Positions 50,482 to 53,437 of a stretch of DNA of 64,000 bases are shown piece after piece. A model generated the notes under the pieces. It saw only the letters and a program-made list of their open reading frames with translations, did not search any database and was not told where the DNA came from. Each line of letters starts with the position of its first letter. The stretch's first letter is position 1. This DNA is from Planococcus sp. PAMC 21323. Its GTDB lineage: Bacteria; Bacillota; Bacilli; Bacillales_A; Planococcaceae. The translations under genes and the position numbers were made by a program. The stretch spans positions 1,984,001-2,048,000 of the forward strand of contig NZ_CP009129.1 in NCBI RefSeq assembly GCF_000785555.1, read 5' to 3'.

Positions 50482-50615
50482 CAACTCACTCCTTTTCTCT
50501 CTATACCAAATGTATTCGCTTCCATATTGGAAAATCCTTTTATTTATACTATAGAGGGTCACATCATGCTATAATTCTTTTTGTTTTCATTTTATTTAGC
50601 GAGGTGGGCTTATCA

Positions 50616-52085
50616 TTGTCTCAATTAGAAACTCCGTTATTTGATGCACTCCTAAAGCATCGAAATCGGCATCCAATCCAATTCCATATTCCTGGTCATA
50701 AAAAAGGACAAGGCGTCGATCCCGCATTCCGGGAATTTGTCGGCGATAATATACTTTCCATTGATTTGATCAATATTGCACCTTTGGACGATTTACATTC
50801 TCCAAAAGGCGCAATTAAAGAAGCGCAAGAACTCGCTGCCAAAGCTTTCGGGGCAGACCATACATTCTTTTCTGTACAAGGTACAAGTGGCGCAATCATG
50901 ACGATGATTCTGAGCGTTGTGGGACCCAATGATAAAATTTTGGTTCCAAGAAACGTTCATAAATCGATTATGTCTGCTATCGTTTTTGCTGGAGCTATCC
51001 CGATTTTTATTCACCCAGAAGTTGATACAGAACTTGGGATTTCACACGGGATTTCTGCAGAAGCTGTAGAAAAAGCATTGGACGAATATCCAGATACCAA
51101 AGCCGTATTGGTTATTAACCCTACTTATTTTGGTGTAGCTGCAGATTTAAAACGAATTGTTGATATTGCCCATGAACGAAATGTACCTGTCTTAGTTGAT
51201 GAGGCACACGGTGTTCATATTCATTTTCACAAATCATTGCCCGTTTCAGCAATGTCGGCAGGTGCAGATATGGCTGCAACCTCTGTCCACAAACTTGGCG
51301 GTTCCATGACTCAAAGTTCCGTATTGAATGTACGTGAAGGCCTTGTGTCACCAAAACGCGTACAGTCTACATTATCTATGCTAACCACGACATCAACGTC
51401 TTATCCAATTTTAGCTTCTCTTGATACAGCAAGACGTCAGTTAGCAGTTCATGGATATGATTTGATCGACCGGACCATTCGATTAGCTCAAGATGCGCGA
51501 AAACGAATCAATAAAATTCCTCATCTATATTGTGTTGGGAAAGAAGTTTTAAATTCGTCTGCTACTTTTGATATGGACCCAACAAAATTATTAATTAGCG
51601 TTAAGAATTTAGGCATCACCGGGCATCAAGCCGAGGAATGGCTAAGAGAAAATGCTAATATTGAAATCGAACTTTCCGATTTATACAATATTCTTTGTTT
51701 AGTTACGCTAGGCGATAGCCGCAAAGAGGTAAATCTTCTGATTAATGCTCTTCAGCGCATGAGCGAAACCTTAGATAGCGATGCCGCGGTTGTAGAACCT
51801 GTTGTCATGATTCCGGATATTCCAAGACTTGCTATGACTCCGCGAGATGCTTTCTACGCAACGACAGAAGTTATTTCAATCAATGACGCTGTTGGACGTA
51901 TTTCTGCAGAATTTATTATGGTCTACCCGCCAGGTATTCCTATATTTATTCCAGGTGAAATCATCACCGAAGAAAACATCAATTATATTCACATGAACGT
52001 CGCTGCTGGATTGCCAGTACAAGGACCCGAAGACGACACTTTGCAAATGCTACGGGTCATAAAAGAACAACAAGCGATTAGGTAA
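50616..52085 (+). CDS. speA: Orn/Lys/Arg decarboxylase family, arginine decarboxylase SpeA
   Basis: A 489-residue PLP enzyme of the fold-type I group. SQLETPLFDALLKHRNRHPIQ-type start with FHIPGHKKGQGVDPAF matches B. subtilis SpeA. PLP contacts are VDEAHGVH and AATSVHKLGGSMTQSS with the Schiff-base lysine; the C-terminal domain includes YPPGIPIFIPGE. It decarboxylates arginine to agmatine for polyamine synthesis; lysine activity is an alternative. I choose a TTG at 50616 with GAGGTG 9 nt upstream over the GTG at 50604, which lies within that site. Confidence 0.93.
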   Translation: MSQLETPLFDALLKHRNRHPIQFHIPGHKKGQGVDPAFREFVGDNILSIDLINIAPLDDLHSPKGAIKEAQELAAKAFGADHTFFSVQGTSGAIMTMILSVVGPNDKILVPRNVHKSIMSAIVFAGAIPIFIHPEVDTELGISHGISAEAVEKALDEYPDTKAVLVINPTYFGVAADLKRIVDIAHERNVPVLVDEAHGVHIHFHKSLPVSAMSAGADMAATSVHKLGGSMTQSSVLNVREGLVSPKRVQSTLSMLTTTSTSYPILASLDTARRQLAVHGYDLIDRTIRLAQDARKRINKIPHLYCVGKEVLNSSATFDMDPTKLLISVKNLGITGHQAEEWLRENANIEIELSDLYNILCLVTLGDSRKEVNLLINALQRMSETLDSDAAVVEPVVMIPDIPRLAMTPRDAFYATTEVISINDAVGRISAEFIMVYPPGIPIFIPGEIITEENINYIHMNVAAGLPVQGPEDDTLQMLRVIKEQQAIR

Positions 52086-52089
52086 ATAA

Positions 52090-52211
52090 GAAAAGTGAAA
52101 GTGCCTGCTCAGCTCTGACAGGCATAAGGTGACCCAGCAGTGTGGCGTTCTTTGCCACGCAGCTGGGTTGACTTATGTCCCGAGGAGCTAGGCACTTGCA
52201 ACTGGACAACT
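52090..52211. repeat. Structured intergenic repeat, unit A copy 1
   Basis: About 120 bp able to fold into one long nested hairpin. Pairs seen: AAGTGCCT (52099) with AGGCACTT (52190), AGCTC (52111) with GAGCT (52185), CATAAG (52123) with CTTATG (52172), ACCCAGC (52132) with GCTGGGT (52162) and GTGGC (52142) with GCCAC (52154). No ORF with a ribosome-binding site was seen. It begins 5 nt after the speA stop. Confidence 0.85.
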
Positions 52212-52333
52212 AGAAAAGCGGAAGCAGCCATGGAGATTCGACAGGCATAAGACGCACTGACGAAGTGGCGTGTTTTCAGCCACACAGCCAGAGTGGCTTA
52301 TGTCCCGAGAATCTGGCTGCTGGAGACTCGACA
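52212..52333. repeat. Structured intergenic repeat, unit B
   Basis: The same architecture as unit A with different paired bases: AGCAGCC (52223) with GGCTGCT (52315), AGATTC (52234) with GAATCT (52309), CATAAG (52246) with CTTATG (52297), CACT with AGTG, and GTGGC (52265) with GCCAC (52279). The blocks GACAGGCATAAG and CTTATGTCCCGA are shared with A. Confidence 0.85.
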
Positions 52334-52335
52334 CA

Positions 52336-52457
52336 GAAAAGTGAAAGTGCCTGCTCAGCTCTGACAGGCATAAGGTGACCCAGCAGTGTGGCGTTCTTTG
52401 CCACGCAGCTGGGTTAACTTATGTCCCGAAGAGCTAGGCACTTGCAACTGGACAACT
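52336..52457. repeat. Structured intergenic repeat, unit A copy 2
   Basis: A copy of unit A shifted by exactly 246 bp, with two differences over the unit (52416 A for G, 52430 A for G). Both changes leave the listed stems intact. Confidence 0.85.
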
Positions 52458-52495
52458 AGAAAAGCGGATGCAGCCGTGGAGATTCGATAGGCATA
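52458..52495. repeat. Structured intergenic repeat, truncated unit B
   Basis: Only the 5' arm of a B unit, ending just after GGCATA, with three differences from the complete B. It cannot form the outer stem. The direct repeat with 52212-52249 ends here, next to the pdaA-like gene terminator. Confidence 0.75.
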
Positions 52496-52510
52496 GCTCT
52501 ACAAAACATA

Positions 52511-52543
52511 AAACGATCCACAGATTTTTTCTGTGGATCGTTT
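52511..52543. terminator. Bidirectional terminator before the deacetylase stop
   Basis: A 13-bp stem AAACGATCCACAG/CTGTGGATCGTTT with a 7-nt T-rich loop, flanked by A and T runs. It serves the minus-strand deacetylase gene and could also stop speA read-through. Confidence 0.88.
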
Positions 52544-52544
52544 T

Positions 52545-53378
52545 TCATATTCCTTCGATTTCTTTCGGATCAACAAAGTCATAACCTTTATCTTCTAAAC
52601 CTTGAATAATTCCTGGTAAAGCTTCGACTGTCCAATCTCGATCGTGCATCAATAAATTGGCTCCATTATTCAAATACTCGGTATTAACCATAATATCTGT
52701 TAAAGCTTGAGCGTTTTGATATTGCTTTTCCCAATCATAACCGTATGTCCAGTTCATCAACACCATTTTTTCGTCTGACACCAAGTGTTTACTGAAATCA
52801 GTATTAGAACCAAATGGGGCACGGAAAAACTTTGGTTTTTCGCCTGTAATTTCTTCTATTAATGCACTTACTTTCAAAATTTCTTCTTGCTGTTGTTGTT
52901 CAGTTAATCCTTTTAAATCTTGATGACTATATGTGTGATTGCCAATCACAAAGCCCATTTCATGAATTTTTTTAAGCTGTTGTTGTTTTTCTTCTGTAGC
53001 TAAAAAATGACCATTTACAAAGAAAATCGCAGGAATATCTTGGCTTTTTAAAATTTCAGCCATTTCCAATGAATGCTTGTCCGGCGCATCATCAATTGTC
53101 ACAAGCACGACTTTTTCATTTGCCTCAGCAATTGGCTGTATCGACCAATTGGCTGTATTTAGCTTGTATTGCGGTTCCGCTATTTGACCTTCTTCTTTTG
53201 TTTCATCTTCCACTACTTCTTCTTTTTGTTCTGTTTGTGCTTCTTGTTTTTTTGTTTCATTATTATTACTTACATTTTCTGTTTGTTTTACATCATTTGA
53301 AGACTTATTAGTGTCCTCTCCACATGCTGTAAGTAATAATGAAACCGCTGCGATAGCCACCCATTTTTTATGTACCAT
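52545..53378 (-). CDS. Polysaccharide deacetylase family lipoprotein
   Basis: A 277-residue lipoprotein (signal WVAIAAVSLLLTAC, lipid Cys). After it is an acidic, Asn/Lys/Glu-rich linker to about residue 70. The NodB deacetylase domain follows with VLVTIDDAPDKHS (metal Asp region), GNHTYSHQDL (two His ligands) and FFRAPFGSNTD. It probably removes acetyl groups from a cell-wall or surface polysaccharide. The ATG at 53378 has AAAGGGTG 7 nt upstream; 18 in-frame codons upstream are unconserved. It is a single-gene unit. Confidence 0.87.
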   Translation of the reverse strand: MVHKKWVAIAAVSLLLTACGEDTNKSSNDVKQTENVSNNNETKKQEAQTEQKEEVVEDETKEEGQIAEPQYKLNTANWSIQPIAEANEKVVLVTIDDAPDKHSLEMAEILKSQDIPAIFFVNGHFLATEEKQQQLKKIHEMGFVIGNHTYSHQDLKGLTEQQQQEEILKVSALIEEITGEKPKFFRAPFGSNTDFSKHLVSDEKMVLMNWTYGYDWEKQYQNAQALTDIMVNTEYLNNGANLLMHDRDWTVEALPGIIQGLEDKGYDFVDPKEIEGI

Positions 53379-53437
53379 TTCAAAACACCCTTTCAATAAA
53401 CAAATCTTACCATGAGAATCTAATTGTGCCAAAAAAA

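Follow-up and report, generated by a model that had tools for sequence, protein, structure and literature searches.

An apparently uncatalogued family of approximately 120-nt interspersed hairpin repeats in Bacilli, frequently placed directly behind stop codons

An apparently uncatalogued family of hairpin repeats occurs in Bacilli, and one of its arrays occupies positions 52,090-52,496 of the window analysed here, a 64,000-nt stretch of the Planococcus sp. PAMC 21323 genome (contig NZ_CP009129.1, positions 1,984,001 to 2,048,000). The array has the composition A-B-A-b', with the last of its four units truncated and the others full, and is flanked by the speA stop codon on one side and the terminator of that gene on the other. 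Our preferred interpretation, held with slightly more confidence than doubt, is that of apparently uncatalogued interspersed repeats of approximately 120 nt that form a long interrupted hairpin as RNA, with a probable role in 3' untranslated regions (3' UTRs), and that would have spread by rare insertion and subsequent tandem growth.

The ORF list and the sequence place the array 4 bases beyond the TAA stop codon (52,083-52,085, + strand) of the co-directional upstream speA-like gene, which encodes 493 aa (50,604-52,085). All units lie on the + strand. Unit A1 (52,090-52,208) is a full hairpin running from GAAAAG to GGACA and corresponds to a covariance-model match of 125.2 bits (G000:C1:2036087-2036212; G000 denotes the genome of the window). 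Unit B (52,213-52,333) is a second full hairpin in which the outer and second stems differ from those of A (127.2 bits, G000:C1:2036210-2036337), and unit A2 (52,336-52,454; 126.5 bits, G000:C1:2036333-2036458) lies 246 bp from A1 and differs from it at 2 of 123 positions. The truncated unit b' (52,459-52,496) consists of the initial ~38 bases of a B unit, its best match within the array being the second unit. A 15-bp terminator hairpin (52,510-52,544), common to speA and the convergent gene at 52,545-53,432, follows and is conserved in relatives whether or not they carry the array. The A-B-A-b' arrangement with near-identical A units that an earlier note had read from the letters is therefore real, and all of the stems it named were found: an outer stem AGTGCCT/AGGCACT in A versus AGCAGCC/GGCTGCT in B, a second stem AGCTC/GAGCT in A versus AGATTC/GAATCT in B, and CATAAG/CTTATG and GTGGC/GCCAC in both. 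Features beyond that note are the position of the array between stop codon and terminator, the recurrence of this placement in the family and the recurrence of a truncated last copy.

The predicted folding energies were -64.5 kcal/mol for A (z -6.3) and -45.2 kcal/mol for B (z -3.4), both far below those of shuffled sequences, and when positions 52,080-52,550 were folded as a whole (z -9.6) each full unit formed one separate hairpin. No intrinsic terminator, i.e. a hairpin with a T-run, was called within the array; the unit tails are CTGGACAACTA-like and the repeat hairpins are not followed by a T-run. A CRISPR pattern of short repeats and unique spacers was likewise not found in the array, where units of ~120 nt are separated by just a few bases.

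A blastn search with the A-B stretch located 27 places in the genome of the window, and a covariance model built from 29 distinct units of this genome (34 consensus pairs) returned 73 matches, reverse-strand echoes of the palindrome included; numbers of this size exclude a chance origin. With the echoes removed, the 3.2-Mb genome has a total of about 48 full or fragmentary units, which are distributed over 29 loci as head-to-tail groups of one to four. The repeat was present in all 24 genus genomes first examined, with between 6 and at least 87 model matches in each of the 23 genomes other than that of the window. At order level, a broader covariance model detected it in 174 of 250 genomes, representing 14 of 19 genera, and at class level in 38 of 301 genomes, among which nine families besides that of the window were represented. 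Carriers include Planococcus, Sporosarcina, Jeotgalibacillus, Bhargavaea, Domibacillus and Mesobacillus, and the GGCATAAG core that the earlier note mentioned for other Bacillales was indeed found there. A weak model match (36.8 bits, L154:2097-2286) was also seen in a record of the actinobacterium Arthrobacter beigongshangensis REN13; Planococcus REN8, which has a similar strain name, carries the repeat, and the REN13 match may represent contamination or chance.

Searches against Rfam release 15 gave no family above the gathering threshold in the window, and a permissive search gave only chance-level matches to short hairpin families. The literature searched, which excluded most subscription papers, turned up bcr1, ERIC, REP and general stem-loop surveys, and contained no description of the repeat sequence (GACAGGCATAAG, GGAAGCGCC), including under repeats of Planococcus/Sporosarcina or Geobacillus. 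A family with very clear covariation in hundreds of Bacilli genomes is yet absent from Rfam, and the covariance model from this analysis could serve to annotate it.

Conservation of the fold was evident in the pattern of substitutions. Among the 29 units of the window's genome, 98.7% of pair cells were standard pairs and two-sided changes occurred in 22 of the 34 pairs, values reached by none of 500 shuffles; when the partner strand was slid out of register, pairing fell to 25-42%. A more diverse set of 56 units showed two-sided changes in 27 of 31 pairs, again with no shuffle as high. The argument that paired changes imply selection on structure is thus strongly supported across the family, and the outcomes that would have spoken against it did not materialise, as loci are many and the other copies keep the paired arms. 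The letters of the internal loop, GAC[AG] opposite CCGAG, are conserved beside stems that vary freely. In addition, the GAAAAG[C/T] start covaries with a CT[G/A]GACA tail (columns 9-10 with 133-135 of alignment A4; C-G in 41 and U-A in 9 of 56 units), which indicates that the unit ends also pair.

The earlier note had left open whether the structure is maintained in RNA or in extruded DNA. G-U pairs are tolerated when a structure is maintained in RNA, and the complementary strand would read A-C at the same sites. Imperfect pairs in the window's genome comprised 56 G-U versus 3 A-C. In 144 units of other strains the counts were 223 versus 46, or 104 versus 46 after removal of two pairs at which G-U is very common. 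The alignments behind all of these counts were scored for structure on this strand, a choice that tips them somewhat towards G-U. Single stem changes between orthologous copies with checked flanks showed the same tendency, with G-U to A-C counts of 15:1 for the genomes G014 and G015, and of 21:4 and 15:2 for the window's genome against each of the two, the three comparison sets not being independent. The excess among orthologous changes was alike in sense arrays and in others, and arrays of the window's genome that are antisense to their neighbours had the same bias, in small numbers. The excess of G-U over A-C indicates a fold kept as RNA of the strand that begins with GAAAAG (the + strand here), and its presence among orthologous changes indicates that the fold is still maintained where the copies sit. 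In an extruded DNA cruciform the two strands are used equally, and no such excess would arise; between the two alternatives, the data point to RNA. A mutational strand bias large enough to produce the excess seems unlikely.

The location of the arrays relative to genes was equally asymmetric. In the window's genome, 19 of 29 arrays begin at the stop codon of a co-directional upstream gene, with the proviso that a simple script was used for gene calling and some neighbours may be missed; in most of those inspected by eye, a terminator-like hairpin comes next. Across all loci collected, 68 of 170 distinct array starts lay at a co-directional stop codon whose end fell at -8 to +3 relative to GAAAAG, mostly at -4 to +1, while just 6 had one at a distance of 21-60 nt. 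The mirror arrangement is almost absent, with only 2 convergent stop codons within -20 to +8 of the array 3' end. The remaining starts, by inspection, often follow the T-run of a terminator or a degenerate unit, or are adjacent to the region where a divergent gene starts, and about 10 of the 29 arrays in the window's genome are antisense to both neighbours. With respect to replication, as judged by GC skew, the orientation is even (68 leading, 74 lagging); a replication-strand bias considered on account of the window's genome, where 17 of 29 arrays looked lagging-sense, was discarded on this larger set.

These observations bear on the possibility that the repeat is a purely selfish DNA element of MITE- or REP-like type. 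In that case a trans-acting transposase would recognise the hairpin as single-stranded DNA, and the stop-codon position would merely be one at which insertion is harmless. Dispersed and polymorphic loci and the toleration of antisense copies would fit such an element, and REP/IS200-type elements also have strand-specific hairpins (PMC6006769). However, filtering for sites where insertion is harmless would place copies ahead of terminators, but would account neither for starts within ~5 bases of the stop codon nor for how rare the opposite orientation is. The changes made after divergence preserve a fold for which a dead insert would have no use, and replication-strand bias is lacking. The Y1 transposase domain PF01797 had no match in the window's genome, compared with matches in 5 of 14 controls; a search for the reverse transcriptase domain PF00078, taken as the mark of retroelement-derived repeats, also gave no match there (3 of 14 controls matched). 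Taken as a whole account, the purely selfish element has perhaps a minor chance of being correct, although antisense copies and quick turnover make a selfish component likely in addition to any RNA role.

The tight association with stop codons is the least explained fact about the repeat, and raises the question of how a small sequence arrives precisely behind stop codons. A speculative and rather improbable answer is a machinery that would recognise the 3' end of coding sequences via translation or transcription, for example through a ribosome at the stop codon of an mRNA, and insert the repeat in sense, copies then being kept as RNA modules of the 3' end.

Turnover could be followed at orthologous loci. 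The comparison at speA that the earlier note had proposed showed the array to be missing in 18 of 23 relatives, nearly all of these loci having a stop codon and then the terminator a few bases on, although GTAGAAAAGC in one of them (G002) may be a remnant. The other 5 of 23 carry arrays of differing composition, all beginning directly behind the stop codon. Between G014 and G015, whose flanks are mostly 90-98% identical, nearly all comparable loci are common and the unit number is often different; the window's genome and G014 share most loci, with some private to each. One site of the latter kind lies at about 43,105 of the window, which is empty except for a short unrelated stretch, and at which G014 has a two-unit array (G014:C1:2298427-2298674). 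Loci are therefore likely to be gained and lost rarely, and tandem expansion and contraction to be frequent. The same scatter of speA occupancy, the fast-changing unit number and the many copies antisense to neighbours weigh against a host-encoded RNA module, in which the repeats would be bound by a single RNA-binding protein or RNase and make up a post-transcriptional regulon, spread by selection for regulation and not by self-propagation; the conserved loop letters beside varying stems and the fold preserved in place speak for it, and we regard it as unlikely overall.

Variation of unit number at fixed loci and the existence of near-identical unit runs, such as the five to six consecutive units at 120-bp spacing in G170, could also suggest that a terminator-like hairpin expanded in tandem in place, repeatedly and independently, with no dispersal. 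Unlinked loci, however, have long A-B stretches in common at 90% identity, the same sequence core recurs across families and no T-run follows the hairpins. The shared stretches and core rule out independent origins; in-place expansion is refuted as the sole explanation and has a negligible probability. A further GAAAAG start was seen after 102 of 161 arrays, versus 15 and 3 in control windows, and often leads into a truncated copy. Arrays usually end in such a copy (e.g. 52,459-52,496 of the window), which in several loci matches the first rather than the last unit. Strictly cyclic arrays, in which the last copy would in every case repeat the first unit, were suggested by the window's genome and did not prove general.

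As to mobility, MITEs are marked by terminal inverted repeats and target-site duplication; the outer arms of the present units pair, and no clean duplication could be read from comparisons of filled and empty sites. The mobile element that the earlier note envisaged is borne out only in its outcome, by empty loci in relatives and varying unit number. Distant blastn searches of phage and plasmid collections with a consensus-like unit found no match, and hence no vehicle for the repeat is visible.

Under the preferred interpretation of an interspersed 3'-UTR repeat, the units would belong to the 3' UTR of the host gene's mRNA, and new loci would be seeded by rare insertion through a putative machinery, with the arrays then growing and shrinking as tandem repeats. 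The most likely effect of the stacked hairpins at the 3' end of the mRNA would be to delay degradation in the 3'-to-5' direction or to set a processing point, and by analogy with the report for ERIC in Yersinia they could be expected to shield or define that end. A fold kept in place as RNA raises the question of whether stacked 3'-UTR hairpins tune mRNA life. Against this interpretation, the approximately 10 of 29 antisense arrays cannot be ordinary 3' UTRs of their neighbours and yet have the same G-U bias, a finely tuned role for each individual array is hard to reconcile with how fast unit numbers change, and searches for a machinery, covering Y1 transposase and reverse transcriptase, and for a clean target-site duplication gave nothing.

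Several known repeats share parts of this description. ERIC/IRU elements of Enterobacterales and Vibrio are ~127 bp long and are reported to form RNA hairpins that act on neighbouring genes in Yersinia (PMC2267715). The present repeat is similar in form only, being an intergenic, dispersed (29 loci), long imperfect hairpin of ~120 nt, and differs in hosts and presumably in sequence, in its tandem arrays, in its frequent start right behind stop codons and in its interchangeable outer stems. The bcr1 repeat is reported as specific to the Bacillus cereus group, and is described as structured, intergenic, ~150 nt long and of mobile-element character (PMC2267715, referring to Okstad 2004); it shares with our family a structured intergenic nature and a Bacilli host, and is set apart, by description, by our family's host range of mainly Planococcaceae plus several other families. 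In length, shape and dispersal the repeat may work like ERIC or bcr1, and kinship to either is not implied. REP elements associated with RAYT (Y1) are also dispersed extragenic hairpins with strand-specific features; the unit described here is far longer, and two marks of REP/RAYT or IS200/IS605-derived repeats that were looked for, PF01797 in the window's genome and replication-strand bias, were both absent. Bhal-1 of Bacillus halodurans (74 nt, 36 copies; PMC2267715) is likewise a structured intergenic repeat family of a Bacillaceae genome and, compared by description only, is shorter than the present repeat.

Within the family itself, a second type of inner core, CGACAAGCGCTGGAGGGC ... GAAGCGACTCGAGGGGCT, was observed in the same outer shell and mixed with A/B-type units within arrays (L133:1798-1923, L162:538-665, L170:4137-4264, L191:7128-7254, G000:C1:350810-350936 and G000:C1:2573481-2573608).
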